Part shown: positions 23,641-42,142 of the stretch, one piece after another
How positions within the stretch are numbered: the stretch's first letter is position 1
How the letters are laid out: each line of letters starts with the position of its first letter
Assembly: GCF_035825295.1 (NCBI RefSeq)
Contig: NZ_JAYMGI010000002.1
Coordinates: forward strand, 6,834,001-6,898,000
DNA from: Actinacidiphila sp. DG2A-62
Lineage (GTDB): Bacteria > Actinomycetota > Actinomycetes > Streptomycetales > Streptomycetaceae
Length of the DNA: 64,000 nucleotides
Direction: 5' to 3'
Notes under the pieces: model-generated
Seen by the model: only the letters and a program-made list of their open reading frames with translations
What the model was told of the DNA's origin: nothing
Database searches by the model: none
Made by a program: the position numbers and the translations under genes

Positions 23641-23671
23641 TGACGGCGGAAAAATGGGAAGGTCTGGTCTC

Positions 23672-24895
23672 ATGGGATTCCACGTCGACTCCGAGACCGG
23701 CCGGCTGCGCAGCGTCATCCTGCACCGGCCGGATCTGGAACTGAAGCGCCTGACCCCGACCAACAAGGACGCGCTGCTCTTCGACGACCTGCTGTGGGTG
23801 CGGCGGGCGCGGGCCGAGCACGACGGGTTTGCGGACGTGCTGCGCGACCGGGGCGTGCAGGTGCACCTGTTCGGCGACCTGCTGGCCGAGACGCTCGCGC
23901 TGCCCGCGGCCCGGCGGCTGGTGCTGGACCGGGTGTTCGACGAGAAGGAGTACGGCCCGCTGGCCACCGGCCACCTGCGGGCCGCCTTCGACGAGCTGGA
24001 CGCGGCCGACCTGGCGGAGGCGCTGGTCGGCGGGATGACCAAACGGGAGTTCCTGGAGCGCTTCGCCGAGCCGGTCTCGGTCCTCTTCCACGCCATGGAC
24101 CTGGACGACTTCCTGCTCAGCCCGCTGCCCAACCACCTGTTCACCCGGGACACCTCGGCGTGGGTGTACGACGGGGTGTCGATCAACGCGATGCGCTGGC
24201 CGGCCCGGCAGCGCGAGACCGTGCACTTCGAGGCGATCTACCGGCACCACCCGCTGTTCGCCGGCGGCGGCTTCCACGTGTGGTCCGAGGGCCAGAGCGC
24301 GTACCCGTCGACCATCGAGGGCGGCGACGTGCTGGTGATCGGCCGGGGCGCGGTGCTGATCGGGATGAGCGAGCGCACCACCCCGCAGGCGGTGGAGATG
24401 CTGGCCCGCGGCCTGTTCGCGGCGGGCTCGGCCCGGACCATCGTGGCGCTGGACATGCCCAAGCGGCGGGCGTTCATGCACCTGGACACCGTGATGACGA
24501 TGGTCGACGGCGACACCTTCACCCAGTACGCGGGGCTGGGCATGCTGCGTTCGTACACCATCGAGCCGGGCGCGGAGGAGGGCGACCTGAAGGTCACCGA
24601 CCATCCGCCGGAGCACATGCACCGGGCCATCGCGGCGGCGCTCGGCCTGGACACGATCACCGTGCTCACCGCGACGCAGGACGTGCACGCGGCCGAGCGC
24701 GAGCAGTGGGACGACGGCTGCAACGTGCTCGCCGTGGAGCCGGGCGTGGTGGTGGCCTACGAGCGCAACGCCACCACCAACACCTTCCTGCGCAAGCGCG
24801 GCATCGAGGTGATCGAGATCCCCGGCAGCGAACTCGGCCGGGGCCGCGGCGGCCCGCGCTGCATGAGCTGCCCTGTCGAGCGCGACGCGGTGTGA
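23672..24895 (+). CDS. arcA: Arginine deiminase
   Basis: A 407-residue enzyme hydrolysing arginine to citrulline and ammonia, the first step of the arginine deiminase pathway. Family motifs are present: [14 protein letters not shown] at the N-terminus, [35 protein letters not shown], and the nucleophile Cys in [10 protein letters not shown] at the C-terminus. ATG 23672 has a GGGAAGG ribosome site; an in-frame ATG 18 nt upstream is less well placed. It is followed by ornithine carbamoyltransferase, the next pathway step, after a 135-bp gap with its own control sequences. No carbamate kinase gene is visible. Confidence 0.95.
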
Positions 24896-24931
24896 GAACC
24901 CCGACCTACGCCTCGACCTACGCCCTAGCCT

Positions 24932-24957
24932 GTATAAGCATGCCGATGATCGTATAG
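24932..24957 (+). promoter_or_regulatory. Imperfect palindrome in the arcB leader
   Basis: An unusually AT-rich segment in the arcA-arcB gap. It contains GTATAAGCAT and, in inverse order, GATGATCGTATAG, giving a TATA-x-G...CAT/ATG...TATA dyad around about 24944. It may be the arcB promoter with an operator (ArgR is the obvious candidate regulator). It does not match an ARG box well enough to claim. Confidence 0.35.
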
Positions 24958-25030
24958 ACTTCCACCCGGCCGGCTGGTGCCTCACCGGTACGCCGCCGGT
25001 ACGTCGCAGCACTCGATCTAGGAGCTTCGC

Positions 25031-26032
25031 ATGGCCGTCGACCTCAAGGGCCGGCACTTCCTCAAGGAACTGGACTTCACCGCGGAGGAGTTCGGCCACC
25101 TGGTGGCGCTGGCCGCCGAGCTGAAGGCGGCCAAGAAGGCCGGCGCCGAGGTGCGGCGGCTGAGCGGCCGCACCATCGCGCTGATCTTCGAGAAGACCTC
25201 GACCAGGACCCGCTGCTCCTTCGAGGTCGCCGCCGCCGACCAGGGCGCGCACACCACCTATCTCGACCCCTCGGGCTCGCAGATCGGCCACAAGGAGTCG
25301 GTCAGGGACACCGCCCGGGTGCTGGGCCGGATGTTCGACGGCATCGAGTACCGCGGCCACGGCCAGGCGGTGGTCGAGGAGCTGGCCGCGCACGCCGGGG
25401 TGCCGGTGTGGAACGGCCTGACCGACGAGTGGCACCCCACCCAGATGCTCGCCGACGTGCTCACCATGACCGAGCACAACCCGAAGCCGCTCACCGAGAT
25501 CTCCTACGCCTACCTCGGCGACGCCCGCTCCAACATGGGCAACTCGCTGCTGGTCACCGGCGCGCTGCTGGGCATGGACGTGCGGATCGGCGCCCCCGAG
25601 GGACTGTGGCCGGACGCCACGGTGATCGCCGAGGCCCGGCGGCTGGCCGACGCCTCCGGGGCGCGGATCACCCTCACCCACGACGTGGCCGAGGCGGTGG
25701 CGGGCGTGGACCACGTGCACACCGACGTGTGGGTGTCGATGGGTGAGCCGAAGGAGGTCTGGGACGAACGGATCGCGCTGCTCAAGCCGTACGCGGTGAC
25801 CGCCGACGTGCTGCGCGCCACCGGCAACCCGCAGGTCACCTTCCTGCACTGCCTGCCCGCGTTCCACGACCTGGGCACCGGCGTCGGCCGGGAGATCCAC
25901 GCCCGGCACGGCCTGGAGTTTCTGGAGGTCTCCGACGAGGTCTTCGAGTCGGAGCGGTCCATCGTCTTCGACCAGGCGGAGAACCGGATGCACACGATCA
26001 AGGCGGTCCTGGTGGCGACCCTGGCCGGCTGA
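25031..26032 (+). CDS. arcB: Ornithine carbamoyltransferase
   Basis: A 333-residue transcarbamylase. The carbamoyl-phosphate site is in [14 protein letters not shown], with [12 protein letters not shown] as the second loop; the ornithine-side SMG loop ([10 protein letters not shown]) and [10 protein letters not shown] hold the catalytic Cys region. It interconverts citrulline plus phosphate and ornithine plus carbamoyl-phosphate. The neighbouring arginine deiminase suggests the catabolic (ArcB) form rather than the biosynthetic ArgF, which the sequence alone does not separate. ATG 25031 has a GGAGC ribosome site. The 3' flank carries three tandem hairpins. Confidence 0.93.
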
Positions 26033-26040
26033 GCCCGACG

Positions 26041-26121
26041 CCGGCCCTCGGCGGCGCGGCCCGAGCCCCGGCCCTCGGCGGCGCGGCCCGAGCCCCGGCC
26101 CTCGGCGGCGCGGCCCGAGCG
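26041..26121 (+). repeat. Three perfect 27-bp tandem repeats, each a hairpin
   Basis: Exact copies begin at 26041, 26068 and 26095. Each copy contains CTCGG-N9-CCGAG, a 5-bp stem. The array starts 8 nt after the arcB stop codon, so it probably serves as a multi-hairpin terminator or 3' stabiliser. Confidence 0.8.
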
Positions 26122-26250
26122 CCGTGTCCCGACGCCGGCGTCCCGCCCGCCCCGTCCCGCTCGCCGGCTCCAGCGGCCGTGCCTCCCCTGTGTCGCCTTG
26201 GTGACGACGGTCACGAACGAGTGATACCGTCGAGACGGAGGAGGCCGCGC

Positions 26251-27078
26251 ATGAGTCCGCATCCCAGCTCCGCGAGCCCGACGCCCCACTGGCGCCATCT
26301 GCGCCTGGAGCACGACGACGGCGTCGCCACCGTCACGCTCGACCGCCCGGACCGGCTGAACGCGCTGACGTTCGGCGCCTACGCCGATCTGCGCGACCTG
26401 CTCGCCGAGCTGGCCCGCGAGGGCGGGACGCGCGCGCTGGTGCTGGCCGGGTCGGGCCGCGGGTTCTGCTCCGGCGGCGACGTCGAGGAGATCATCGGCG
26501 CCACCCTCGCGATGGGCGCGGGGGAGCTGCTCGACTTCACCCGGATGACCGGCCAGGTGGTGCGGGCGGTGCGGGAGGCCCCGTTCCCGGTGATCGCGGC
26601 GGTGCACGGGGTCGCCGCGGGTGCCGGGGCGGTCCTCGCGCTGGCCGCGGACTTCCGGATCGCCGAGCCCGACGCGCGGTTCGCCTTCCTCTTCACCCGG
26701 GTCGGCCTGTCCGGCGCCGACATGGGCGCCGCCTACCTGCTGCCGCGGGTGGTCGGCCTCGGGCACGCCACCCGGCTGCTGATGCTCGGCGAGACCGTCG
26801 ACGCCGCCGAGGCGGAACGGATCGGCCTGGTCAGCTCCACCGCGCCCGAGGGCGGCGCGGACAAGGCCGCCGCAGCGCTCGCCCGCCGGCTCGCCGACGG
26901 CCCGGCGCTCGCGCACGCCCAGACCAAGGCCCTGCTCACCGCCGAACTCGACATGCCGCTCGCCGCGTCGGTGGAGATGGACGCCGCGACCCAGGCGCTG
27001 CTGATGACCGGCGAGGACTACGCGGAGTTCCACGCCGCGTTCACCGGCAAGCGCCCGCCGCGGTGGAAGGGCCGCTGA
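26251..27078 (+). CDS. Enoyl-CoA hydratase/isomerase family protein
   Basis: A 275-residue crotonase-fold enzyme. The oxyanion-hole segments are GSGRGFCSGGDVEE and HGVAAGAGAVLALAADFRIA. At the usual second catalytic position the sequence reads GLSGADMGAAYLLPR, with Asp rather than Glu, as in PaaG-type isomerases. The substrate is probably a ring-derived CoA thioester made by the neighbouring monooxygenase. ATG 26251 has a strong GGAGGAGG ribosome site. The flavoprotein gene starts 2 nt after its stop, so they are co-transcribed. Confidence 0.92.
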   Translation: MSPHPSSASPTPHWRHLRLEHDDGVATVTLDRPDRLNALTFGAYADLRDLLAELAREGGTRALVLAGSGRGFCSGGDVEEIIGATLAMGAGELLDFTRMTGQVVRAVREAPFPVIAAVHGVAAGAGAVLALAADFRIAEPDARFAFLFTRVGLSGADMGAAYLLPRVVGLGHATRLLMLGETVDAAEAERIGLVSSTAPEGGADKAAAALARRLADGPALAHAQTKALLTAELDMPLAASVEMDAATQALLMTGEDYAEFHAAFTGKRPPRWKGR

Positions 27079-27080
27079 CC

Positions 27081-29408
27081 GTGGCGCCCCCGGACGCGTC
27101 CGGCCCCGGCGCGCGCGTCGCCGTCATCGGCGGCGGCCCCGGCGGCCTCTACGCCGCCGCGCTGCTCCAGCGCCTCGACCCCGGACGCCGGATCACCGTG
27201 TGGGAGCGGGGCGCGCCCGAGGACAGCTTCGGCTTCGGCGTGGTCTTCTCCGACGAGACGCTCGGCGGCATCGCCGCCGCCGACCCGGTCGTGCACGCCG
27301 CCGTGGAGCGGGAGTTCGTCCGCTGGGACGCCATCGACATCCGGCACCGCGGCCGCACCACCCGCTCCGGCGGCCACGGGTTCGCCGCGCTGGACCGGCG
27401 CCGGCTGCTGGCGCTGCTGCGCGACCGCTGCCTCGACCTCGGGGTCGACGTCAGGACCCGCACGCCGGCCCCGCCCGCCGCCGAACTCGCCGCGGGACAC
27501 GACCTGGTGATCGCCGCGGACGGCGCGCACAGCGCCACCCGCGCCGCGCACGCCGACGCCTTCGGCCCGCACCTGACCGCGCACGACTGCCGCTACATCT
27601 GGCTGTCGGCCGAACTCGCGCTGGACGCCTTCCGGTTCGAGATCGTGGAGACGCCGTACGGCGTGATGCAGGCGCACCTGTACCCGTACCGCGCCGACGC
27701 CGCGACCTTCATCGTGGAGATGACCCGACAGGTGTGGCGGCGGGCCGGGTTCGACGCGATGGACGAGGCGGAGTCGGTCGCCGCGTGCGAGAAGCTGTTC
27801 GCCGAGGTGCTCGGCGGCCGTCCGCTGCACGGCAACCGGTCGCGCTGGCAGCACTTCACCACCGTGGTCAACGACCGCTGGCGGCACGGCCGTACGGTCC
27901 TGCTCGGCGACGCCGCCCACACCGCGCACTTCTCCATCGGCTCCGGCACCAAGCTCGCCATGGAGGACGCCCTCGCGCTCGCCGCGTCGCTGCGCGAACA
28001 GCCGGACGTGGACACCGCGTTGGAGGCGTACGAAGCCGAGCGGCGGCCGGTGGTGGCCAGCACCCAGCGGGCGGCGCTGGCCAGTCTGGAGTGGTTCGAG
28101 CGGCTGGCCGGCTACCTCGACCAGCCGGCCCCGCAGTTCGCCTTCAACCTGCTGACCCGCAGCCGCCGCGTCACGCACGGCAACCTGCGGCTGCGCGACC
28201 GGGAGTTCACCGACGCCGTCGAGAAGGACTTCGGCGCGCCGCCCGGCACCCCGCCGATGTTCACGCCCTTCACCCTGCGCGGGCTGACCCTGCGCAACCG
28301 CGTCGTGGTCTCCCCGATGGACATGTACGCGGCGCGCGACGGAGTCCCCGGCGACTTCCACCTCGTGCACCTGGGCGCGCGGGCGCTCGGCGGCGCGGGG
28401 CTGGTGATGACCGAGATGGTCTGCGTCAGCCCGCAGGGCCGCATCACCCCCGGCTGCACCGGGCTGTGGTCGGACGAGCAGGAGGCGGCGTGGCGGCGCG
28501 TCACCGACTTCGTGCACGCGGCGGGCCCCGGCGGCTTCGGCCTCGGTCCCGGACCCGGTCCCGCGATCGGGCTGCAGCTCGGCCACAGCGGCCGCAAGGG
28601 TTCGACCCGCCTGATGTGGGAGGGCATCGACCAGCCGCTGCCGGACGGCAACTGGCCGCTCAGCGCGCCCTCGCCGCTGCCGTACCGCTCCGGCGTCAAC
28701 CAGGTGCCGCACGCGCTGGACGAGGCCGGACTCGTCCAGATCCGCGGGCAGTTCGCGCAGGCTGCCGCCCGCGGCGCCCGGGCCGGCTTCGACCTGCTCG
28801 AACTGCACTGCGCGCACGGCTACCTGCTCTCCTCCTTCCTGTCCCCGCTGACCAACCGGCGCACCGACCGCTACGGCGGCGACCTGGCCGGCGGGCTGCG
28901 CTACCCGCTCGACGTCCTGGACGCCGTGAGGCAGGCGTGGCCCGAGGACCGCCCGCTGACCGTGCGGATCTCGGCCACCGACTGGGCGCCGGGCGGCACC
29001 ACCGGGGACGACGCGGTCACGATCGCCCGCGCGCTCGCCGCGCACGGCGCCGACGCGGTCGACGTCTCCACCGGCCAGGTCGTCCCCGACGAGACGCCCG
29101 CGTACGGCCGCTCGTACCAGACCCCGTACGCCGACCGCATCCGCAACGAGACCGGGATGCCGGTCATCGCGGTCGGCGCGATCTCCTCGTGGGACGACGT
29201 CAACTCCCTGCTCCTGGCCGGGCGCGCCGACCTGTGCGCGCTGGCCAGGCCGCACCTGTACGACCCGCACTGGACGCTGCACGCCGCGGCCGAGCAGTCC
29301 TACGAGGGCCCCGCCGCGCCCTGGCCCGCGCCCTACGCGGCCTGCCGCCGCCCGCCGCCGACCGGCCGCACCGACGCGCCCAAGCCCCGCCTCAGCCTCG
29401 ACGCGTGA
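27081..29408 (+). CDS. Bifunctional aryl-CoA monooxygenase/oxidoreductase (FAD hydroxylase fused to old yellow enzyme)
   Basis: A 775-residue fusion. Residues 10-390 form an FAD aromatic hydroxylase: GGGPGGLYAAALLQRLDP at the start and VLLGDAAHTAHFSIGSGTKL for FAD binding. Residues 400-775 form an FMN old-yellow-enzyme domain: NRVVVSPMDMYAARDG, HCAHGYLLSSFLSPLTN, NRRTDRYGG. The same fusion occurs in 2-aminobenzoyl-CoA monooxygenase/reductase and salicylyl-CoA 5-hydroxylase-type proteins, which hydroxylate and then reduce a CoA-bound aromatic ring. GTG 27081 has AAGGG about 10 nt upstream; GTG 27063 overlaps the preceding gene and lacks a ribosome site. The adjacent CoA ligase and RidA genes favour an amino-aromatic substrate. 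Confidence 0.9.
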   Translation: MAPPDASGPGARVAVIGGGPGGLYAAALLQRLDPGRRITVWERGAPEDSFGFGVVFSDETLGGIAAADPVVHAAVEREFVRWDAIDIRHRGRTTRSGGHGFAALDRRRLLALLRDRCLDLGVDVRTRTPAPPAAELAAGHDLVIAADGAHSATRAAHADAFGPHLTAHDCRYIWLSAELALDAFRFEIVETPYGVMQAHLYPYRADAATFIVEMTRQVWRRAGFDAMDEAESVAACEKLFAEVLGGRPLHGNRSRWQHFTTVVNDRWRHGRTVLLGDAAHTAHFSIGSGTKLAMEDALALAASLREQPDVDTALEAYEAERRPVVASTQRAALASLEWFERLAGYLDQPAPQFAFNLLTRSRRVTHGNLRLRDREFTDAVEKDFGAPPGTPPMFTPFTLRGLTLRNRVVVSPMDMYAARDGVPGDFHLVHLGARALGGAGLVMTEMVCVSPQGRITPGCTGLWSDEQEAAWRRVTDFVHAAGPGGFGLGPGPGPAIGLQLGHSGRKGSTRLMWEGIDQPLPDGNWPLSAPSPLPYRSGVNQVPHALDEAGLVQIRGQFAQAAARGARAGFDLLELHCAHGYLLSSFLSPLTNRRTDRYGGDLAGGLRYPLDVLDAVRQAWPEDRPLTVRISATDWAPGGTTGDDAVTIARALAAHGADAVDVSTGQVVPDETPAYGRSYQTPYADRIRNETGMPVIAVGAISSWDDVNSLLLAGRADLCALARPHLYDPHWTLHAAAEQSYEGPAAPWPAPYAACRRPPPTGRTDAPKPRLSLDA

Positions 29409-29441
29409 GGCGCCGGTGGCGGTGCCGCGCGGCACGGCCCG

Positions 29442-29550
29442 ACGCCGCGCCGCGTCACGCCGCGTCACGCCGCGCCGCGCCGCGTCACGCCGCGTCACGC
29501 CGCGCCGCGTCACGCCGCGCCGCGTCACGCCGCGTCGCCTCACGCCGCGC
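29442..29550. repeat. CGTCACGCCG-type short-period array
   Basis: About 110 bp of nearly pure 10-bp units (CGCGTCACGC) mixed with 5-bp CGCCG steps, filling the gap between the convergent monooxygenase and PaaX genes and running a few codons into the paaX 3' end. No coding role is seen. Confidence 0.75.
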
Positions 29551-30490
29551 GTGCCTGCCCCCGGGCCTGCTCGCGCACGTACGCCGCGCCGAGCTCCCGC
29601 AGCAGCTCGTGCAGCCGGCCGAAGACCGCGGCGGAGCGGGACCCCGGCCAGCCGTCGGGCAGCAGCGCCGCGGGCAGCCCCGGGTCGGCGTAGGGCAGCC
29701 TGCGCCAGGAGTCCAGCGCCCGCAGGTAGTCCGCGAAGGCCTCGGCGCCGCGGCCGTCCGCACCGCGCGTCCCCGCGCCGTCCGCGTTCGCACCGCGCGT
29801 CTCCGCGCCGTCCGCGTTCGCACCGCGCGTCGCCGCGCCTCCGGCGCCCGCGCCCGCCGCCGCCTCCCACCGCTCCAGCACCGGCTCGTGCGCCGCCAGG
29901 AACCCCCGGTGCAGCGCGGCCAGCGCGTCCAGGTCCCACCAGCGGCGCACCGCTTGCGCGGTCGGCGTGAAACCGGCGTGGGCGCCGCGGAACAAGTCCA
30001 CGTAGGACGCCAGGCCCAGCCGGTCCAGGGCGTGCCGGGTCTCCTCGTAGAGCGCGCCGGGCGCGATCCACACCCCGGGCGCGGCGGAGCCGAAGCCGAG
30101 CCCGGCCAGCCGGGAGCGCAGCACGTGCCGCTTCTGCCGCTGCGACTCCGGCACCGAGAAGACCACCAGCAGCCAGTCGCCCTCCTCGCGCGTGCCGGCG
30201 CCGTAGATCCGCCGGTCGCCGTCCGCGAGCAGCTGCCGCGCGTCGGCGGACAGCCCGTAGGCCGCCGCGCCGCCGGTCCGCGTCGGCACCAGCAGCCCGC
30301 GGCGCTTGAGCCGGGACACCGCCGAGCGCACCGACGGCGCGTCCGCGCCGGCCGCGGCCATCGTCCGGATCAGCACCGAGACCGGGACGTCCCCGCCCAG
30401 TTCGGAGCGGCCGTAGGCGCCGTAGAAGCTGAGGATCAGCGAGCCGGGGGTGTACGGCTGCGGCTCGCCCACGACGTGTTCTGCGGTCAC
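29540..30490 (-). CDS. PaaX-family transcriptional regulator
   Basis: A 316-residue GntR/PaaX-type repressor. It has an N-terminal winged helix (SVRSAVSRLKRRGLLVPTR), the PaaX middle domain (WLLVVFSVPESQRQKRHVLR, LGFGSAAPGVWIAP) and a C-terminal helical domain ending near the usual 280-residue length. Between them lies an insert coded by 30-bp tandem repeats (29761-29830 and flanks; GANADGAGTR units), which probably explains the extra length. PaaX regulators respond to aryl-CoA thioesters such as phenylacetyl-CoA, so this is the likely controller of the cluster. It starts 4 nt downstream of the CoA ligase stop. Confidence 0.92.
   Translation of the reverse strand: MTAEHVVGEPQPYTPGSLILSFYGAYGRSELGGDVPVSVLIRTMAAAGADAPSVRSAVSRLKRRGLLVPTRTGGAAAYGLSADARQLLADGDRRIYGAGTREEGDWLLVVFSVPESQRQKRHVLRSRLAGLGFGSAAPGVWIAPGALYEETRHALDRLGLASYVDLFRGAHAGFTPTAQAVRRWWDLDALAALHRGFLAAHEPVLERWEAAAGAGAGGAATRGANADGAETRGANADGAGTRGADGRGAEAFADYLRALDSWRRLPYADPGLPAALLPDGWPGSRSAAVFGRLHELLRELGAAYVREQARGQARAA
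29761..29830 (-). repeat. 30-bp in-frame minisatellite inside paaX
   Basis: Near-identical 30-bp units begin at 29761 and 29791, with the start of a third at 29821. They encode repeats of ten residues (GANADGA-E/G-TR) in a region of the PaaX regulator with no conserved function. Confidence 0.8.
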
Positions 30491-30494
30491 ACGA

Positions 30495-32096
30495 TCACTT
30501 TATGTCACGCAGCCGGAACCGCTGGAGTTTGCCGGTCGGGGTCCGCGGCATCTCTCGCAGAAAGCGGATCTCGCGCGGGCACTTGTACGGCACGATCACG
30601 CTCTTGGTGAAGTCCCGCAGCCGCCGCGCCGTCGCCTCGTCGTCCGCGACGCCCTTGCGCAGCACCACGAAGGCCCGCACGAGATGGCCGCGCTCCTCGT
30701 CCGGGACGCCGATCACCGCGGCCTCGCGGACGTCCGGGTGCCGCAGCAGGGCCTCCTCGACCTCGGGGCCCGCGATGTTGTACCCCGCGGAGATGATCAT
30801 GTCGTCGGCCCGGGCCACATAGCGGAACCTGCCGTCCAGGTCGCGGACGTAGGTGTCGCCGGTGACGTTCCAGCCGTCGCGGACGTACTCCGTCTGCCGC
30901 TCGTCGGCGAGGTAGCGGCAGCCGGTCGGCCCGCGCACCGCGAGCAGCCCCGGTTCGCCGTCCGGCACCGGGCGCATCGCCTGGTCGACCACCTGCGCGC
31001 GGTAGCCCGGCACCGGCCGGCCGGTGGCGCCGGGACGCGCCTCGGCGTCGGCGCCGGAGATGAAGATGTGCAGCATCTCCGTCGACCCGATGCCGTTGAT
31101 CAGCCGCAGCCCGGTCCTGTCGTACCAGTCCTGCCAGGTCACCGCGGGCAGGTTCTCACCGGCCGAGACGCAGCGCCGCAGGCTGGACAGGTCGTACGGG
31201 CCGGGGTCGCCGAGCATCGCGCGGTACGCGGTCGGCGCGGTGAACAGCACGCTGACCCCGTGCTCGGCGACCGCCCGCAGCAGCTCGGCGGGCCCGGCCC
31301 TCTCCAGCAGCAGCGTGGACGCGCCGGCCCGCATCGGGAAGACCACCAGGCCGCCGAGGCCGAAGGTGAAGCCCAGCGGCGGGCTGCCGGTGAACACGTC
31401 GGCCGGCTCGGGTCGCAGCACCTGCGCGGAGAAGGTGTCCGCGACGGCCAGCACGTCGCGGTGGAAGTGCAGGCAGCCCTTGGGCCGCCCGGTGGTGCCC
31501 GAGGTGAAGGCGATCAGCGCCACGTCCTCGGCCGCGGTCGGCACCGGGTCGTACGACGGCGGCCGCTCCTCGGCCAGCCGCAGCAGGTCGTCCGGCCCGG
31601 GGCCGCCGTACGCGAGCATCCGCAGCCCCGGCACCCCGGCCGCGACCAGGTCCTCGGTGCAGCGGTGGTCGCACAGCGCGTGCCGCACCTCGGCGATCCG
31701 GCACACCTCCGCCAACTCGCGGGCGCGCTGCGCGGCCAGCACCGTGACCGCGACGGCGCCCGCCTGGAGCACCGCCAGCCAGCAGGCCACCAGCCACGGT
31801 GTGGTCGGGCCGCGCAGCAGCACCCGGTTGCCCGGCACCACGCCCATCGGCCCGGTCAGCACATGGGCGATGCGCGCGACGGTCTCGCGCAGCTCGCCGT
31901 AGGACCAGCACTCGCCCCCGGGGGTGCGCAGGCAGGGCGCGCCGGCCGGGCCGCCGGCCAGCAACTCGGTCGCGCAGTTGAGCCGTTCGGGGTAGGGCGG
32001 GATGTTCTCCAGCCGGGGCCACAGCTCCGGGGGCGGCAGGTGGTCGCGCGTGAAGGTGTCCACATGGGCTGACGGCGGCGATACGTCCAGGTCCAT
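30495..32096 (-). CDS. Benzoate-CoA ligase family (AMP-binding) enzyme
   Basis: A 533-residue adenylating acyl-CoA ligase: ATP-binding loop FTSGTTGRPKG, SAGENLPAVTW, NGIGSTEMLHIF, GWNVTGDTY and the C-terminal Lys in PRTPTGKLQRFRLRD. SAGENLP and GIGSTEMLHIF are characteristic of benzoate- and 2-aminobenzoate-CoA ligases. It would activate the aromatic acid for the fused monooxygenase. ATG 32096 (MDLDVSPPSAHVD) is preferred over GTG 32120 because a GAGGGG ribosome site lies upstream of it. The gene is divergent from the acyl-CoA dehydrogenase across a 147-bp promoter region. Confidence 0.92.
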   Translation of the reverse strand: MDLDVSPPSAHVDTFTRDHLPPPELWPRLENIPPYPERLNCATELLAGGPAGAPCLRTPGGECWSYGELRETVARIAHVLTGPMGVVPGNRVLLRGPTTPWLVACWLAVLQAGAVAVTVLAAQRARELAEVCRIAEVRHALCDHRCTEDLVAAGVPGLRMLAYGGPGPDDLLRLAEERPPSYDPVPTAAEDVALIAFTSGTTGRPKGCLHFHRDVLAVADTFSAQVLRPEPADVFTGSPPLGFTFGLGGLVVFPMRAGASTLLLERAGPAELLRAVAEHGVSVLFTAPTAYRAMLGDPGPYDLSSLRRCVSAGENLPAVTWQDWYDRTGLRLINGIGSTEMLHIFISGADAEARPGATGRPVPGYRAQVVDQAMRPVPDGEPGLLAVRGPTGCRYLADERQTEYVRDGWNVTGDTYVRDLDGRFRYVARADDMIISAGYNIAGPEVEEALLRHPDVREAAVIGVPDEERGHLVRAFVVLRKGVADDEATARRLRDFTKSVIVPYKCPREIRFLREMPRTPTGKLQRFRLRDIK

Positions 32097-32175
32097 GGCG
32101 GCAGAGCCCCTCGTCGGCACCTGAAAGCGGACCGTTTCAGCGTAACGTGTTCATGACGGCAGTCAACCAAGCGCG

Positions 32176-32207
32176 ATAGAGCCCGCTGAGAATAGAGCCC
32201 GCTGAGA
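32176..32207. promoter_or_regulatory. Two direct 16-bp repeats in the divergent promoter region
   Basis: ATAGAGCCCGCTGAGA occurs twice in tandem (32176-32191 and 32192-32207), between the divergent CoA ligase and acyl-CoA dehydrogenase genes. It is an AT-richer island in a GC-rich genome and a candidate binding site for the PaaX regulator encoded next door. Confidence 0.45.
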
Positions 32208-32243
32208 AGCGTGCCGAGGCCCGATGAGAAGAAGGCGGCGCAG

Positions 32244-33583
32244 ATGAACGCTCCCGGCTCCCCCCGCACGGCCCCCGCCGGTCTCCCGCGGTCGGCCCCG
32301 GACGCCTCGCCCCCGTCGGCCGCGGCCGCGCCGCCGATGTTCCGGCTGGACGACCGGCGGGCCGCGTGGGCCGAGGAGGTGCGCGCGATCGCGCGCGAGC
32401 GGTTGGCGCCGCTGGCCGCGGCGGGACCCGAGGGCCGGGTCGACCGCGCGCTGGTCGCGGCGCTCGGCGAGGCGGGGCTGATCGCCCGGGTGCTCCCCGA
32501 GGGCCGCGCCTGCGCGCTGGACCTGTGCGTGCTGCGCGAGGCGCTGGCCCGCGAGTGCACCGAGGCCGAGACCGCGCTCGCGCTCCAGGGCCTCGGCGCC
32601 CATCCGCTGCGCGCCGCGCCCGAGGTGGCCGCGCGCTGGCTGCCCGAGGTGGTCGCCGGGCGCGCGGTCGCCGCGTTCGCGCTCACCGAGGAGGGGCCGG
32701 CTCCGACGCGGCGGCGCTCGCGCTGGCCGCCGAGCCGGACGGGCCCGGCCGCTGGCGGCTGACCGGCGAGAAGTGCTGGATCTCCAACGCGCCGGACGCC
32801 GACGTCTACACGGTCTTCGCCCGCACCGGGCCGCCGACCTCCGAGGCCGGGCCGCCGACCTCCGAGGCCGCGCCGCCCGCTGCTGACGCCGCGTCCGCCC
32901 CCGAGGCCGCGCCGCGCGACGCCGCGCCGCCCGCCGCTGACGCCGCGTCCGCCCCGCGCCGCGCCCGCGGCGCCCGCGGCGCCCGCGGCGTCACCGCCTT
33001 CGCCGTGCCCGCCGACCGGCCGGGGCTCGGCGGCGAGCCGCTCGACATGCTCGCGCCGCACGCGATCGGCCGGCTCACCTTCGACGCGGTGCCGGTCACC
33101 GCCGCGGACCTGCTCGGCGAGGAGGGACACGGCATCCGCGTGGCGATGGCGACGCTCGACCTGTTCCGGCCCAGCGTCGGCGCGTTCGCGGTCGGGATGG
33201 CGCAGGCCGCGCTGGACCTGGCGCTCGCGCACGCCGCGCGGCGCACCGCGTTCGGCGGGCCGCTGAAGGACCTGCAGGCCGTCGCGCACCCGCTCGCCGA
33301 GATGGCCACCAGGATCGAGGCGGCCCGCCTGCTGGTGCACGCCGCGGCCGCCGCCCACGACGCGGGCGCGCCCGACGTGACGCGGCGCGCCGCGATGGCC
33401 AAGCTGTTCGCCACCGAGACCGCGCAGTACGTGGTGGACGCCGCGGTGCAGATCCACGGCGCCCGCGCGCTGCGCCGCGGCCACCGCCTGGAGCAGCTGT
33501 ACCGCGAGGTGCGCGCCCCGCGCATCTACGAAGGCGCCACCGAGGTCCAGCGGAGCGTCATCGCGAGGGAGCTGTACCGATGA
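32244..33583 (+). CDS. Acyl-CoA dehydrogenase, frameshifted as read
   Basis: FAD-dependent acyl-CoA dehydrogenase, 446 residues if corrected. The N-terminal helices run to ALQGLGAHPLRAAPEVA; the middle has FALTEEG-AGSDAAAL and GEKCWISNAPDADVYTVF; the C-terminal FAD and catalytic part has GGPLKDLQAVAHPLAEMATR and the base Glu in YEGATEVQRSVIA. One G is missing from the run 32693-32696, so the first frame ends at 32762 and the rest lies in another frame. About 55 residues of Ala/Pro repeats (nt 32835-32995) are inserted in the beta-domain between YTVFARTG and VTAFAVPAD, which is unusual. ATG 32244 is used; GTG 32211 is possible. The end overlaps ridA (ATGA). Confidence 0.88.
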
Positions 33584-33978
33584 GCGTGCGCCGGATCAAC
33601 CCCGAGGGCCTCGCGCCCGCGAGCGGCTTCTCGCACGCGGTCGCCGCGACCGGCCGCACCTTGGTGATGCTCGCCGGGCAGACCGCGCTGGACGCGAGCG
33701 GGCGGATCGAGGGCGACGGCCTGCCCGCGCAGTTCGCCCGCGCGCTGGCCAACCTGCTCGCCGCGCTCGCCGAGGCCGGCGGCACGCCCGCCGACCTCGC
33801 CCGGGTCACCGTCTACACCACCGACGTCGCCGGCTACCGCGCGCACGCCCGCGAACTCGGCCGCATCTGGCGGGAGTCGGCCGGCCGTGACTACCCCGCG
33901 ATGGCCGTGATCGGCGTCGTGCGACTGTGGGACGAGCAGGCGCTGGTGGAGATCGACGGCATCGCGGTCCTGCCCTGA
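33580..33978 (+). CDS. RidA-family protein
   Basis: A 132-residue member of the RidA/YjgF superfamily, trimeric enzymes that hydrolyse reactive enamines and imines. The conserved Arg is in AVIGVVRLWD and the Glu in LVEIDGIAV; N-terminal LAPASGFSHAVAATGRTL and AGQTALD are standard. Encoded with the amino-aromatic CoA enzymes (ATGA overlap with the dehydrogenase), it probably releases ammonia from an enamine intermediate rather than acting as general RidA. Confidence 0.92.
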   Translation: MSVRRINPEGLAPASGFSHAVAATGRTLVMLAGQTALDASGRIEGDGLPAQFARALANLLAALAEAGGTPADLARVTVYTTDVAGYRAHARELGRIWRESAGRDYPAMAVIGVVRLWDEQALVEIDGIAVLP

Positions 33979-34080
33979 GCGCGTCCCGCCCTGACGCGCG
34001 CCCGCCCTGACGCGCGCCCGCCCCGAGCGCGTCCTGCCCTGACGCGCGTCCGCCCTGAGCGCGTGCCTGCCGTGAGCCAC
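33976..34080 (+). repeat. Degenerate tandem repeats after ridA
   Basis: Several imperfect copies of a 15-18 bp unit (CCTGACGCGCG(C/T)CCG or CTGAGCGCGTCC) follow the ridA stop codon and end near the strong terminator at 34126. Confidence 0.6.
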
Positions 34081-37861: not shown

Positions 37862-39322
37862 TCACCCGGTCGTCTCGAAGGAGCTGAGGGTCGGGTCGTG
37901 GTCGAGGTCGCCGGTCTCGTACATGGGCGTCATCCAGTGGTAGAAGTTGTCGCCGCGCTCGCGCAGCAGGTCGTACAGGCGGCGGACCAACCGCACCCGC
38001 ACCGGGCGCAGTTCGGGATGCGCATAACGGTTGACCAGCTCGTGCGGATCGGCCTCCAGGTCGTACAGCTCGTTCACCGACTCCGGGTTGACCACCAGCT
38101 TGTAGCGGTCGTCGCGGATCATCCGCTGCGGGTAGGGGAAGTGGTGGCCGTGGAACTCCGCCAGCAACTCGGCGCGCCACCGCGGGTGTTCGCCGCGCAC
38201 CAACGGCAGCAGGCTGCGGCTGTCCACGGCCGGCGCCGGGTCGCAGCCGGCCAGGTCCAGCACCGTCGCGGTGCAGTCGGTGAGGGTCGCGAACTCCTGG
38301 CGCACCCGCGGCGCGTGGCCGGGCACCCGGACGATGCCGGGGATGCGGTAGATGTCCTCGTACATCGCCGGGCCCTTGTCGTGCAGCCGGTGCGCGCCGG
38401 TGAACTCGCCGTGGTCCGCGGTGAAGAACACTGACGTGTCCCCGGCCAGGCCGAGTTCGTCCAGCCGGGTCAGGATGCGGCCGATCTGCTCGTCGATCAG
38501 CGAGACGTAGCCCCAGTAGACGGCGATGAGTTTGCGGGTGGTCTCGATCGGCAGGGTGTCGAACGCCCAGTGCGCGCTGTAGTTGGCCTGCACCGGCGGC
38601 TTGCCGGCGAAGGTCTCGGCGATCGAGGGCGGCAGCTCGACCAGGTCCGGGTCGTAGGCGTCGTAGTACGCGTCGGGCAGCAGGTACGGCAGGTGCGGCC
38701 CGAAGAAGTGGGTGGCCAGGAAGAACGGCCGCTCGCCCGCCGCGTACCGCTCCAACTGCTCGATCGCCCGGTCGGCCAGATAGTGCTCGAAGGTCGCCTC
38801 GACGGGCTGGTGCAGCCGGGCGGCGAGCAGGTTGCCGGGGTTGCCGTTGGGGAACACCCCGCGCACCGGGTCGCTGATCCGGTACGGCGGCAGACCGCGT
38901 TCTGCGAGGTAGGCGCGGTAGTCGGGGTGGTCCACCGGGTTGTGCCAGCCGGCCAGGTCCGGGCCCTCGAAGCCGTAGGAGGCGGCGTTGCGCCGGGTGC
39001 CGCCGTGCCACTTGCCGACCAGGCCCAGCCGGTAGCCGCGCTCGGCCAGCGCGGCGGGGAAGGTGAAGACGTCCTCGCGCAGGTCCTCCAGGTAGCCGAC
39101 GTTGCGCTCGTGGTTGGCCAGCAGCCGGTGGCGGAACGGCGCCTGGCCGGTGAGCAGGCTCGCGCGCGCTGGGGTGCAGATCGCGGTGGGCGTGTAGAAG
39201 CGGTCGAAGCGGGTGCCGGTTGCCGCCAGCCGGTCCAGGTTCGGCGTCGCCACGTGCGGGTTGCCGTAACAGCCGAGGGTGTCGACGCGGTGCTGGTCGG
39301 TCATCAGGAAGAGGATGTTCAC
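37862..39322 (-). CDS. Sulfatase (formylglycine type)
   Basis: A 486-residue cytoplasmic or unconventionally exported sulfatase; no signal peptide is visible. The active-site consensus is ICTPARASLLTG, with Cys49 to be converted to formylglycine and Arg53 conserved. Metal ligands are expected in FLMTDQHR at the start and in FFTADHGEF; the catalytic Lys/His are in LVGKWHGG. The sequence is closest in style to choline-sulfatase/arylsulfatase-like enzymes; the substrate is unknown. The GTG start at 39322 overlaps the substrate-binding protein stop (GTGA). The activating enzyme FGE is encoded 4 kb away on the same strand. Confidence 0.92.
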   Translation of the reverse strand: MNILFLMTDQHRVDTLGCYGNPHVATPNLDRLAATGTRFDRFYTPTAICTPARASLLTGQAPFRHRLLANHERNVGYLEDLREDVFTFPAALAERGYRLGLVGKWHGGTRRNAASYGFEGPDLAGWHNPVDHPDYRAYLAERGLPPYRISDPVRGVFPNGNPGNLLAARLHQPVEATFEHYLADRAIEQLERYAAGERPFFLATHFFGPHLPYLLPDAYYDAYDPDLVELPPSIAETFAGKPPVQANYSAHWAFDTLPIETTRKLIAVYWGYVSLIDEQIGRILTRLDELGLAGDTSVFFTADHGEFTGAHRLHDKGPAMYEDIYRIPGIVRVPGHAPRVRQEFATLTDCTATVLDLAGCDPAPAVDSRSLLPLVRGEHPRWRAELLAEFHGHHFPYPQRMIRDDRYKLVVNPESVNELYDLEADPHELVNRYAHPELRPVRVRLVRRLYDLLRERGDNFYHWMTPMYETGDLDHDPTLSSFETTG

Positions 39323-40314
39323 CGGCCGGCCGCCCGGGTGAAGGCGGCGCCGTCGTAGTACGCGGACACGGCCGGCTTGCTCGTGACCTGGCCGGTGCCG
39401 ACGAAGAAGTCGGCGAGGCCGTCCAGCCAGCCGTCCACCGTGCCGTCCTTCGTCTTCGCGACCAGGTCGGCGGTGGTGAGCAGCCGGACGTGCGCGGCGT
39501 CGGCGCGGGTCTGCTCCTCGGTGACCTGGAGCATCCGGGCGGCCAGGGAGATCGCCTGCTCCTTGTGGGCCGCCCGCCAGTCGTTGGCCCGCGCGAGCAC
39601 GCCGACGACCTTCCGCGTGGTGGCCGGGTCGGCCTTCGGCGCGGAGACGAAGGCGGTGGGGAAGGCGTGGTCGGGGAAGTCGTGGTCGGCGGCCAGTTCG
39701 ACCAGCTTCGGCACCCGCTTCCTGATGGTGTCGATGAGCGGGTAGTAGAAGCCGGCCGCGTCGATCTGCCCGGAGGAGAAGGCGGCGACCAGCGTCGAGG
39801 GGTCCATCGGGACCTTCTTGACGTCCGAGTCGGTCAACCCGGCCGTTTTCAGTGCCAGTTCGAGGATCATCTCGCCGGAGGTGCCCTCGGGGACGCCGAT
39901 CTTCTTGCCCTTCAGCGCGGCCACGGAGGTGATTTCGGGCTGGGCGATCACCCGGTCGGCGTCGGTGAGCGTGTCGATGGCGATGACCTTCGCCTTGCCG
40001 GTGGCCGGCAGCCACATCGCGCCCGGACCGATGTAGCCGTAGTCGAGGTCGCCGGCGCCCAGCGCCTGGATCTGGATCGGGCCGTTGGTGAAGACCTTGA
40101 TGCTCGGCGCGAGCCCGGCCTGTTTCCACAGGTCCTGGTCGTCGGCGATCGCCAGCAGGCTGGAGCCGTTGAAGTCGGCGATGTAGCCGAAGCGGACCTT
40201 CGTCCGGCCGCCCGAGCCCCCCGAGCCGTCGGAGGACGAGGAGCAGGCGGTCGCGGTCAGTGACAGCGCGGTCGCGGACAGGGAGGAGAGCAGGGCGCGG
40301 CGGGTCAGGGACAC
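39319..40314 (-). CDS. ABC transporter substrate-binding lipoprotein, SsuA/TauA type
   Basis: A 331-residue lipoprotein. MSLTRRALLSSLSATAL carries a twin-arginine-like start, and LTATAC|SSSS is the lipobox, followed by a Ser/Gly linker. The mature domain begins KVRFGYIADFNGSSLLAIA and includes IGVPEGTSGEMIL, typical of the NMT1/SsuA group that binds sulfonates, taurine or aromatic acids. In this operon with a sulfatase the ligand could be an organosulfur compound. Start is GTG 40314; a 62-bp gap separates it from the ATPase gene. Confidence 0.9.
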   Translation of the reverse strand: MSLTRRALLSSLSATALSLTATACSSSSDGSGGSGGRTKVRFGYIADFNGSSLLAIADDQDLWKQAGLAPSIKVFTNGPIQIQALGAGDLDYGYIGPGAMWLPATGKAKVIAIDTLTDADRVIAQPEITSVAALKGKKIGVPEGTSGEMILELALKTAGLTDSDVKKVPMDPSTLVAAFSSGQIDAAGFYYPLIDTIRKRVPKLVELAADHDFPDHAFPTAFVSAPKADPATTRKVVGVLARANDWRAAHKEQAISLAARMLQVTEEQTRADAAHVRLLTTADLVAKTKDGTVDGWLDGLADFFVGTGQVTSKPAVSAYYDGAAFTRAAGR

Positions 40315-40376
40315 GGGAGCGGTCCTTCCGTGGGAGGTGCGGGCGGTGCGGGCGGGCGTGGGGATACGGAGAGGGG

Positions 40377-41150
40377 TCAGCGGGCGGGCGGCTCCTGGTG
40401 GTGGACCGCGCTCCAGACCTCGTTGCGCAGCGCCGCGAACTGCGGTGACAGGCGGGTGCGTTCGGTCCTCGGATACGGCAGCCCGACCTCGACGACCCGG
40501 TGCACGCGGCCCGGCCGCGCGGCCATCACCACCACCCGGCCGGCCAGGTACACCGCCTCCTCCACGTCGTGCGTGACGAAGACGACGGTGCGGGTCTGCC
40601 GACTCCAGGTGTCCAGGAGCTGGTCCTGCAACTGCACCCGGGTCAGCGAGTCGAGCGCCCCGAACGGCTCGTCCATCAGCAGCACGTCGGGGTCCACGGC
40701 GTACGCGCGGGCGATCGCACAGCGCTGCCGCATGCCGCCGGAGAGCGTCTTGGGCAGGGCGTCGGCGAAGTCGGCCAGGCCCACCAGCTCGATCGCCTCG
40801 TCGGCGCGCCGCCGCCGTTCCGCCGCGCCGACGCCGGCCACCCGCAGCCCGAACTCCACGTTGCGGCGCACGCTCAGCCAGGGGAAGAGCGCGTACTGCT
40901 GGAAGATCATGCCGCGGTCGGGGCCGGGGCCCGTCACCGGGCGGCCGTCCACCACCACCTCGCCCGAGGTGGGCGCGACCAGCCCTGCGGCCATGTTGAG
41001 CAGCGTGCTCTTGCCGCAGCCCGACGGCCCGACGACGGTCACGAACTCGCGCTCGCCGACGTCCAGGGACACCCGGTCGACGGCGGTGAAGGAGCCGTTC
41101 TTCACCGGGAAGCTGCGCGTCACCTCGCGGAAGGAGATCTTGGCGGTCAT
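40377..41150 (-). CDS. ABC transporter ATP-binding protein, SsuB/TauB type
   Basis: A 257-residue ATPase: Walker [11 protein letters not shown]-loop [11 protein letters not shown], signature LSGGMRQR, Walker [15 protein letters not shown]-loop [13 protein letters not shown]. These features place it in the nitrate/sulfonate/taurine importer family. ATG 41150 overlaps the permease stop by 4 nt (ATGA), so the transporter genes are coupled. Confidence 0.94.
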
Positions 41151-42142
41151 CGGCGCTCCTGCCAGCGGGTGAGCCGGCGCTCGGCGATCAGCAGCAGCCG
41201 GTCCATGACCAGGCCGAGCACACCGATGGCGACCAGTCCCACGAAGATGGTGTCGAGGTCGTAGTACGTCTCGGCGTGCTGCATCCGGAAGCCGAGACCC
41301 TCCTGGGCGGCGATCAGCTCGGCGGCGACCACCGTCGCCCAGGCCGAGCCGAGGCCGATGCGCATGCCGACCAGGATGAACGGGGCCGCCGCCGGGATCA
41401 CCACGCGCAGGAAGACGGTCCTGTCGCGGGCGCCGAGCACCCGGGCGGCGTCGATGAGGGTGCGGTCGACGCCCAGCACGCCCTGGAGCGTGGCCACCAC
41501 GCTGGACAGGAACGCGGCCAGGAAGATCACGAAGACCTTCGGCGTCTCGCCGATGCCCATCAGGACCACCGCGAGCGGGATCAGCGCGAGCGGCGGGATG
41601 GTGCGGAAGAACTGCACATAGGGCTCGATCACCGCGCGCGCCAGTGGGTACCAGCCCATCAGGAAGCCGACCAGCACCGCGGCGACGGTGCCCAGCGCGA
41701 AGCCGATCACCACCCGGCGCAGGCTGGCGAGCATGTCGTCCTCCAGCGTGCCGTCGCGCAGCATGTCCACCGCGCGCCGGCCGACCGCGAGCGGCCCCGG
41801 CAGGTCGCCCACGCCGCGCGCGGCCAGCAGCGCCCAGACGCCGAGGCCGGCGGCGAGCGAGAGCACGTTGACCACGGCGCTCGGCACGCGGCGGGCGGGC
41901 CCGGCGGCGGACCGGGCCGAGGCGCGCGGGCGAGGAGAGCGCGCATCGGGCTTGCGCGCATCGGGCTTGCGCGCATCGGGCGTGCCGGACCGGGGCTTGC
42001 CGGCACCGGCGTCCGGCGAACCGGGCGAGTCCAGAGGGGAGTCGGCGGTGCGGGACGCCTCGACCGCTGCGACCCTTTCCGCCGGGGGCGTCAGGTCCGC
42101 GGGCCCGGGGCCGCGGTCATGCGTCGTCGTGTCCGGGTCCAT
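41147..42142 (-). CDS. ABC transporter permease, SsuC/TauC type
   Basis: A 331-residue membrane subunit with about six helices after residue 85 and the EAA-loop segment [41 protein letters not shown] is typical of SsuC. The first 80 residues are a hydrophilic extension containing 15-bp repeats that give [12 protein letters not shown]. The predicted start overlaps the ROK regulator gene by 26 nt; a later start is possible, since the extension is unlikely to be essential. Confidence 0.92.

Follow-up and report, generated by a model that had tools for sequence, protein, structure and literature searches.

The aerobic degradation of 2-aminobenzoate (anthranilate) through thioesters of coenzyme A (CoA) is an already known pathway, and the closest described systems for the locus studied here, a six-gene cluster at positions 26251-33978 of a window of DNA from Actinacidiphila sp. 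DG2A-62, are those of Azoarcus evansii and of plasmid pAL1/pARUE113 of Arthrobacter Rue61a. The 2-aminobenzoate (ABL/ACMR) clusters of A. evansii, reportedly described by Schuhle et al. in 2001, are said to include a “putative translation inhibitor” gene, an old name for the Rid family, and a MarR-type regulator; they hold a CoA ligase, a fused monooxygenase/reductase and beta-oxidation genes, as does the cluster described here. The window is the whole stretch of 64,000 nucleotides that was analysed (G000:C2:6834001-6898000; 74.5% GC, in a host genome of 8.6 Mb). Its cluster is most likely an aerobic 2-aminobenzoyl-CoA pathway of the A. evansii/Rue61a type, and from its sequence we hold it to be very probable that the locus encodes a PaaX-repressed route for 2-aminobenzoate via CoA thioesters. 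According to the published account of Rue61a (PMC3534580), this strain grows on anthranilate via CoA esters and fails to grow on salicylate or gentisate, the pAL1 ligase shows anthranilate-CoA ligase activity in Escherichia coli extracts, and a CoA ester of composition C7H8O4, possibly cyclohexanedione-carboxyl-CoA according to its authors, appears only in anthranilate-grown cells. That ester fits the product of enamine hydrolysis in the pathway proposed below.

Profile searches of the window's open reading frames (ORFs) gave a clear family match for each of the six genes (Table 1), and the complete set listed in the first-pass annotation, namely ligase, fused enzyme, hydratase-type protein, dehydrogenase, RidA-type protein and PaaX-type regulator, was thus recovered. 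The crotonase and fused-enzyme genes face the paaX-ligase pair, whose two members, 4 bp apart, likely form one transcription unit; the dehydrogenase gene is divergent from the ligase gene, and the start of rid overlaps the dehydrogenase stop codon. Scanning species genomes with the fused protein gave at least 597 pattern matches and at least 580 relatives, of which the best 80 were retained. By their record titles they all belong to Streptomycetaceae; they were retained for their closeness to the window's enzyme, with two Actinacidiphila species nearest at 85% identity, and are not independent of one another, some rows being repeated (e.g., L024/L154 and L073/L153; 105 distinct sequences among 110 Rids and 99 among 102 crotonases). 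All six genes occur together in 68 of these 80 loci, over a span of 7.2-11.6 kb and with the same order and strands in 68/68, which takes the cluster beyond a chance neighbourhood. Seven of the 12 incomplete loci run into a contig or stretch edge, and only 1.8 and 1.0 kb remain in L066 and L086, respectively. The paaX gene is absent from the examined locus DNA of L048, although both operators described below are present there.

This Streptomycetaceae form differs from the A. evansii clusters by its PaaX-type rather than MarR-type regulator, by its divergent ligase-paaX and dehydrogenase-rid pairs, and by hydroxyacyl-CoA dehydrogenase (HADH) and SDR genes not being found at the Streptomycetaceae loci. 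It resembles the pAL1 cluster (L118) in its fused enzyme (60% identity; 59.8% unrounded), ligase (54%), Rid (53%) and PaaX-type protein (40% to both pAL1 PaaX-type regulators, which flank that cluster), whereas in pAL1 FAH, small cupin and thioesterase genes replace those of the crotonase and acyl-CoA dehydrogenase, and there is an upstream pathway for quinaldine. Operons of the Paracoccus/Ruegeria/Deinococcus type (L119, L126, L129) share with the window the ACMR-type enzyme, crotonase, acyl-CoA dehydrogenase, Rid and ligase, with the same residues missing in crotonase and Rid; they differ by an SDR gene directly after ACMR, a MarR regulator and, sometimes, HADH, thioesterase and kynurenine-type genes nearby. 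Rid, ligase and fused enzyme are common to the proteobacterial and pAL1 types, with the exceptions of Comamonas L132, where no Rid was found, and L134, which is truncated at the end of its record; nitrogen removal would thus probably be what the two types have in common, with ring opening differing between them.

The 2-aminobenzoate reading rests on several lines of evidence, among them the grouping of the fused enzyme with pAL1 ACMR, the identity of the ligase to that of pAL1, and the kynurenine-type genes that flank relatives elsewhere. The fused enzyme carries both Pfam domains, FAD_binding_3 and Oxidored_FMN, in a single 781-aa ORF and passes the NF006101 cut-off. In a tree of 65 family members, built quickly and without bootstrap, with 15 of the 65 rows falling in no group, the window's Streptomycetaceae group joins the pAL1-ACMR group with a support of 100 in the Shimodaira-Hasegawa-like approximate likelihood ratio test (SH-aLRT). 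Gene order and plasmid length served to identify the ligase and fused-enzyme genes of NC_009453.1 as ARUE_113p00220/00230 of the published account. The ligase is 55% identical to its Deinococcus counterpart, against 54% for that of pAL1. Its best match of solved structure is the anthranilate-CoA ligase 4wv3, by a modest margin (271 bits versus 255 for benzoate-CoA ligases), and against TIGR02262 it scores 329.6 bits, the cut-off being 375.25.

Gene contexts outside the best 80 loci come from two samples. Across the phylum, 39 of 296 genomes, including the window's own, encode the fused enzyme at E <= 1e-150, the level that we call ACMR-positive, and 17 of them exceed the family cut-off; the 36 phylum-wide loci include eight from Streptomycetaceae. 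Eighteen plasmid contexts were hand-picked from 60 of 411 records, and two were added from another list. Searches by tblastn, with a single reference per gene, placed a kynurenine-type gene (kynU, tryptophan dioxygenase or kynB-like) in the examined flanks of 14 of 54 plasmid and phylum-wide loci, Thalassospira has kynU and kynA within the ACMR operon itself, and in Rhodococcus L121 and pAL1 the cluster is coupled to quinolone or quinaldine catabolism. The Actinacidiphila genome encodes elsewhere a kynureninase (282 bits, cut-off 246) adjoining a tryptophan 2,3-dioxygenase. In L131, L233 and L123, indolepyruvate ferredoxin oxidoreductase genes lie beside the ACMR clusters, together with Rieske dioxygenase subunits in Azospirillum L131; such neighbours may link these clusters to the breakdown of indole-3-acetate to anthranilate.

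The Rid protein, initially named as RidA, is not a canonical one. It shares with E. coli RidA the fold family and the Glu at 120, but Met108 aligns at the position of Arg105, on which known Rid deaminase activity depends, and its score against TIGR00004 is 41 bits, below the cut-off of 106. The active site of RidA-type proteins lies between subunits. In the 110 cluster Rids (70 from Streptomycetaceae, window included, 15 from plasmids and 25 phylum-wide), the Arg105 site holds Met in 103, Ile in three, Val in two, Leu and Ser in one each and Arg in none; Met, found also in pAL1, occupies it in 98 of the 105 distinct sequences. Glu120, Tyr86 and Gly102 are kept in 43 of 43 diverse cluster Rids and Arg98 in 40 of them. 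These new invariant positions are too few to name a new catalytic group. Of the five other Rids of the same genome, one clearly keeps an Arg at the Arg105 site; two have Ser and two Ala there, an Arg directly following one of the two Ala residues. Loss of the Arg is thus not unique to the cluster Rid, while Met is unique among the six; the best Rids of ACMR-negative genomes, where readable, have Thr, Thr and Arg.

The Rid also tracks the fused enzyme between genomes. Used as a query, the window's Rid scored at least 65.6 bits in 26/26 ACMR-positive genomes and at most 52.4 bits in 54/54 negative ones. The 26 positives were drawn from 38 other ACMR-positive genomes, with 12 mostly fragmentary ones set aside, and the 54 negatives, taken from 257, include no member of Streptomycetaceae, so that the contrast is one between families. 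The top match lay within ~7 kb of the fused-enzyme gene in 22 of the 26 genomes, as did the second match in one more, and genomes G042 and G177, where no Rid was found at the locus, have a Rid relative on another contig. According to PMC4433059, the Arg binds ligand carboxylates in RidA-type proteins, the one Arg-less protein assayed, Rid7, showed no imine hydrolysis, and the Rid4-7 subfamilies are called mysterious; six Arg-bearing Rid1-3 members are active (PMC5619798). In our own reading, the cluster Rid would be a deaminase specialised for a CoA-bound enamine, for which Arg105 would be dispensable because in this pathway a CoA thioester takes the place of the carboxylate bound by that Arg in RidA-type proteins.

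The protein first labelled an enoyl-CoA hydratase does not keep the residues behind that name. Its best match of solved structure is 3g64 (475 bits), a close relative labelled a putative enoyl-CoA hydratase, followed by the PaaG isomerase (139 bits). Glutamates corresponding to E109 and E129 of E. coli PaaF, the catalytic pair of a two-glutamate hydratase, are present in none of 102 rows at either site: the E109 position holds Val in 87, Ile in 11, Ala in three and Met in one, and the E129 position holds Phe in all 102. The crotonase is therefore not a two-glutamate hydratase. All 102 rows have, in their GxDMG motif, an Asp that aligns with one of PaaG, and a role in ring opening or isomerisation is more likely from the sequence. 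We propose a retro-Claisen step at C1-C2, on grounds of chemistry and of crotonase relatives such as BadI.

Control by PaaX, as first suggested, is well supported at the operator level by sequence conservation. The regulator has all three domains, PaaX, PaaX_M and PaaX_C, and scores 124.4 bits against TIGR02277, the equivalog model of the phenylacetate regulator (cut-off 264.55), being a PaaX-type paralogue and not phenylacetate PaaX. Counts of short words in the promoter regions of relatives yielded a palindrome, TGACGNNNGTCA, which lies upstream of the crotonase gene in 80/80 loci and between the ligase and dehydrogenase genes in 73/75 regions, the window being included in both counts; both sites are present in 72/74 loci, and elsewhere it is rare, with 15 sites in the remaining 1.54 Mb. 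In pAL1 the palindrome recurs, as TGACGGTCGTCA, between a PaaX-type gene and the next divergent gene. Of 12 other loci checked that bear a PaaX-type gene, pAL1 included, six have some TGACNNNNGTCA site, although not all of these are in promoter positions. The pAL1 regulator MeqR2 has reportedly been described as a repressor with a palindromic binding site of this kind and with a response to anthraniloyl-CoA; the inducer of the present locus is likely to be 2-aminobenzoyl-CoA.

Across the 8.6 Mb of the genome, TGACGRCRGTCA matches 20 times, compared with six for a reversed control. Of the 18 matches outside the cluster, 11 fall inside likely genes, as delimited by a simple gene caller, and seven outside called genes, of which L217 and L221 alone are closely followed by a called gene. 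A local PaaX regulon is the simpler reading, although some of the other sites may also be functional. A minus-strand ORF covering the first cluster site (L228) was judged spurious because it overlaps conserved genes. Scans for Sigma-70 promoters returned none in either cluster promoter region.

From the computed gene set, gene order, conservation, operators, missing residues and family placement, we infer a substrate, an inducer, a series of reactions and an order for the later steps. The ligase would convert 2-aminobenzoate into 2-aminobenzoyl-CoA, which the fused flavoprotein would turn, by hydroxylation at C5 and reduction of the ring, into the enamine 2-amino-5-oxocyclohex-1-ene-1-carbonyl-CoA. 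Hydrolysis of the CoA-bound enamine or imine to 2,5-dioxocyclohexane-1-carbonyl-CoA and ammonia would then be accelerated by the Met-type Rid. Ring opening would fall to the crotonase, in the simplest case through a retro-Claisen hydrolysis of the C1-C2 bond that gives 4-oxopimeloyl-CoA, and the acyl-CoA dehydrogenase would start beta-oxidation of the chain. The PaaX-type repressor would sit on TGACGNNNGTCA before crotonase-ACMR and between ligase-paaX and dehydrogenase-rid until an aryl-CoA (probably 2-aminobenzoyl-CoA) frees it from the DNA. The probable course of the lower pathway thus includes a specialised CoA-enamine hydrolysis and a ring opening. A broader proposal, which we advance tentatively and rate at somewhat less than an even chance, is that the cluster Rids, with Met or else mostly an aliphatic residue at the Arg105 site, form a functional branch of their own that deaminates CoA-bound enamines with no need of the carboxylate-binding Arg, that the Asp-type crotonase is a ring-opening C-C hydrolase, and that together they make up the missing middle of aerobic anthraniloyl-CoA degradation, organised in Streptomycetaceae as a PaaX-type regulon with two operators.

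A salicylate route, in which the ligase would make salicylyl-CoA, the fused enzyme would be a salicylyl-CoA 5-hydroxylase and gentisyl-CoA, once freed, would be cleaved by gentisate dioxygenase, appears quite unlikely. It draws on the name that NCBIfam gives to NF006101, bifunctional salicylyl-CoA 5-hydroxylase/oxidoreductase; among the rows examined, this name seems apt at best for a small derived branch, with the majority of contexts resembling 2-aminobenzoate ones, which suggests that it misleads for many members of the family. It draws also on two of the 20 plasmid contexts, Cupriavidus L120 and Caballeronia L233, where a gentisate-type dioxygenase and a FAH gene stand beside the fused enzyme, with no Rid and, by annotation, no crotonase or dehydrogenase. 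In the tree, however, these two form one clade far from the window and nested inside the clade with crotonase, dehydrogenase and Rid, so that the dioxygenase contexts look derived. Both may themselves act on anthranilate: the L120 dioxygenase scores 312 bits as gentisate and 275 bits as 5-aminosalicylate dioxygenase, both under cut-off, and L233 carries near its fused enzyme and dioxygenase a kynurenine-formamidase-like gene (15240-16004, 50% identical to a Deinococcus one), making it perhaps a third variant for anthranilate rather than for salicylate. Neither a gentisate-type dioxygenase nor a thioesterase was found by tblastn with reference proteins in the 81 Streptomycetaceae loci. The absence of gentisate dioxygenase noted at the outset thus holds for the cluster, while the genome encodes a homologue 0.7 Mb away (248 bits, cut-off 442), a point in favour of the salicylate route. 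That homologue belongs to a separate group (G000:C2:6158805-6163913, L179) with its own FAH-type gene, FAD monooxygenase and MarR-type regulator, and no AMP-ligase occurs among six proteins scanned beside it. The initial use of RidA as a mark against salicylate stands in part: Rid occurs in contexts of the crotonase/dehydrogenase as well as of the FAH/cupin type and is missing from L120 and L233, but only two dioxygenase contexts are available, one of them with the formamidase-like gene, and the phylum-wide locus L170 combines a Rid gene with a dioxygenase-like match (34% identity) ~8 kb from the fused enzyme. The inability of Rue61a to grow on salicylate (PMC3534580) also speaks against such a route. 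With these points, the choice of 2-aminobenzoate over salicylate and of a CoA-dependent, ring-hydroxylating and reducing route is upheld by the pAL1 identity, the tree and the gene contexts. Still more improbable, in our judgement, is a biosynthetic locus that would provide natural-product synthesis with a dearomatised CoA unit (C7N or C7), or serve anthranilate signalling rather than growth. The locus is conserved in Streptomycetaceae with no kynurenine-type genes beside it and with no transporter family common to all loci (an amino acid permease is near in 34 and an MFS protein in 11), as such a role might have it; yet no carrier protein, PKS or NRPS was seen in the subset of neighbour families scanned (permease, HATPase, GNAT, MFS, antiporter, alpha/beta hydrolase and ATPase), and the related sets of Proteobacteria, Deinococcus and other Actinomycetota often come with importers and kynurenine, quinolone or quinaldine catabolism.

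A more serious competitor accepts the 2-aminobenzoate cluster and denies the Rid a deaminase function: the protein would bind or chaperone the CoA ester or another intermediate, and the enamine would hydrolyse by itself. We regard this as a genuine possibility, though a doubtful one. The residue held essential for Rid deaminase activity is Met here and several loci have no Rid in their examined DNA; moreover, work cited in PMC3534580 has the ACMR product unstable below pH 5 and yielding cyclohexanedione by hydrolytic deamination and acidic decarboxylation. On the other hand, the pathway contains an enamine that must lose its amino group, Glu120 is invariant in the diverse rows, and Rid recurs beside very different downstream gene sets while following the fused enzyme from genome to genome. 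Several observations also weigh against the specialised, PaaX-repressed 2-aminobenzoate pathway that we prefer. According to PMC8113886, no deaminase activity had been shown for Rid4-7 by 2021 and RutC R104A is inactive. Rid was not found in the examined DNA of plasmid loci L120, L132 and L134 (L134 being truncated at the end of its record) or at 11 of the 36 phylum-wide loci, some of them uncut (e.g., L159 and L163), and it is clearly absent from the examined locus DNA of L015 and L031. Clusters of pAL1 type have Rid without crotonase or dehydrogenase, so these genes are not one inseparable unit. No kynurenine-type genes were found in the examined flanks of any of the 81 Streptomycetaceae loci, and tblastn did not find there the SDR, HADH and thioesterase genes of the proteobacterial clusters, so that their lower pathway must either proceed by other chemistry or draw on enzymes encoded elsewhere. 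The second TGACGNNNGTCA site was not found in L058 and L086, and two operator sites in 64 kb are by themselves unremarkable, at least two arising in 13 of 100 shuffles. Finally, the acyl-CoA dehydrogenase of the first-pass annotation is present, gene and domains, but in two frames that meet near 32.69-32.70 kb (matched by the L010 and L016 proteins), a break that leaves the ORF at 32366-33583 with a meaningless N-terminus. In relatives L010, L013 and L016 the gene is one open frame (searches of relatives used only part of the window's protein), and the break is either a mutation or a sequencing error; repeat-rich DNA lies inside the gene at 32826-32990.

A Rid gene in such a cluster is in itself no novelty, since the A. 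evansii cluster reportedly has a gene of this family under the name “putative translation inhibitor”. New are the missing Arg of this Rid, its linkage to the fused enzyme across genomes, the residues of the crotonase and the operators; the literature searched, with few subscription papers covered, contained no paper tying Rid to 2-aminobenzoyl-CoA or describing the locus in Streptomyces. The missing catalytic residues in two helper proteins point to unexplored chemistry in the poorly known later steps of a pathway whose most likely substrate, anthranilate, is a product of tryptophan breakdown and whose host is a soil actinomycete. Tryptophan degradation via anthraniloyl-CoA monooxygenase/reductase was omitted from GapMind for lack of knowledge, as stated in 2022 (PMC9007349). 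If active, the Rid would offer a substrate for a Rid protein without the catalytic Arg; PMC4433059 reports the roles of the Arg-less Rid4-7 subfamilies, to which the cluster Rids may belong, as unknown. With only six genes, the Streptomycetaceae form is small enough for stepwise rebuilding and testing.

Table 1. Genes and predicted operators of the cluster, in positions of the window.
Feature	Position	Strand	Supporting match or location
Predicted PaaX operator 1, TGACGACGGTCA	26202..26213	.	37 bp before crotonase start codon
Crotonase-fold protein, annotated “enoyl-CoA hydratase”	26251..27078	+	NF006107 386.7 bits, cut-off 330
Fused FAD monooxygenase/old-yellow-enzyme (2-aminobenzoyl-CoA monooxygenase/reductase type, ACMR)	27063..29408	+	NF006101 1157 bits, cut-off 1078
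PaaX-type transcriptional repressor	29540..30490	-	Pfam PaaX, PaaX_M, PaaX_C
Aryl-CoA ligase, predicted 2-aminobenzoate-CoA ligase	30495..32096	-	AMP-binding domains
Predicted PaaX operator 2, TGACGGCAGTCA	32154..32165	.	divergent ligase/dehydrogenase region
Acyl-CoA dehydrogenase, frame broken once	32244..33583 (start codon alternatively 32337)	+	Pfam Acyl-CoA_dh domains
Rid-family protein, Met for catalytic Arg105	33580..33978	+	PF01042 66.7 bits

An arginine deiminase-like protein, judged by eye, and an ornithine carbamoyltransferase are encoded directly upstream of the cluster (23654-26032) and occupy that position in most Streptomycetaceae loci, the former gene being called in 71 and the latter in 74 of 81; in 34 loci an amino acid permease gene lies between the carbamoyltransferase and crotonase genes (e.g., L012 6824-8446). 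About 5 kb downstream of the cluster, at 39319-42142, are the genes of an ABC importer (SsuA-type binding protein, ATPase and permease), the binding protein of which had no tblastn match around the loci of the 80 relatives, many of them ending near that distance. The region is also rich in short GC-rich tandem repeats (26033-26159, 29443-29550, 29755-29843, 32826-32990 and 33967-34077), which reach inside two coding genes, those of the PaaX-type regulator and the dehydrogenase, as if minisatellites were expanding in this genome.

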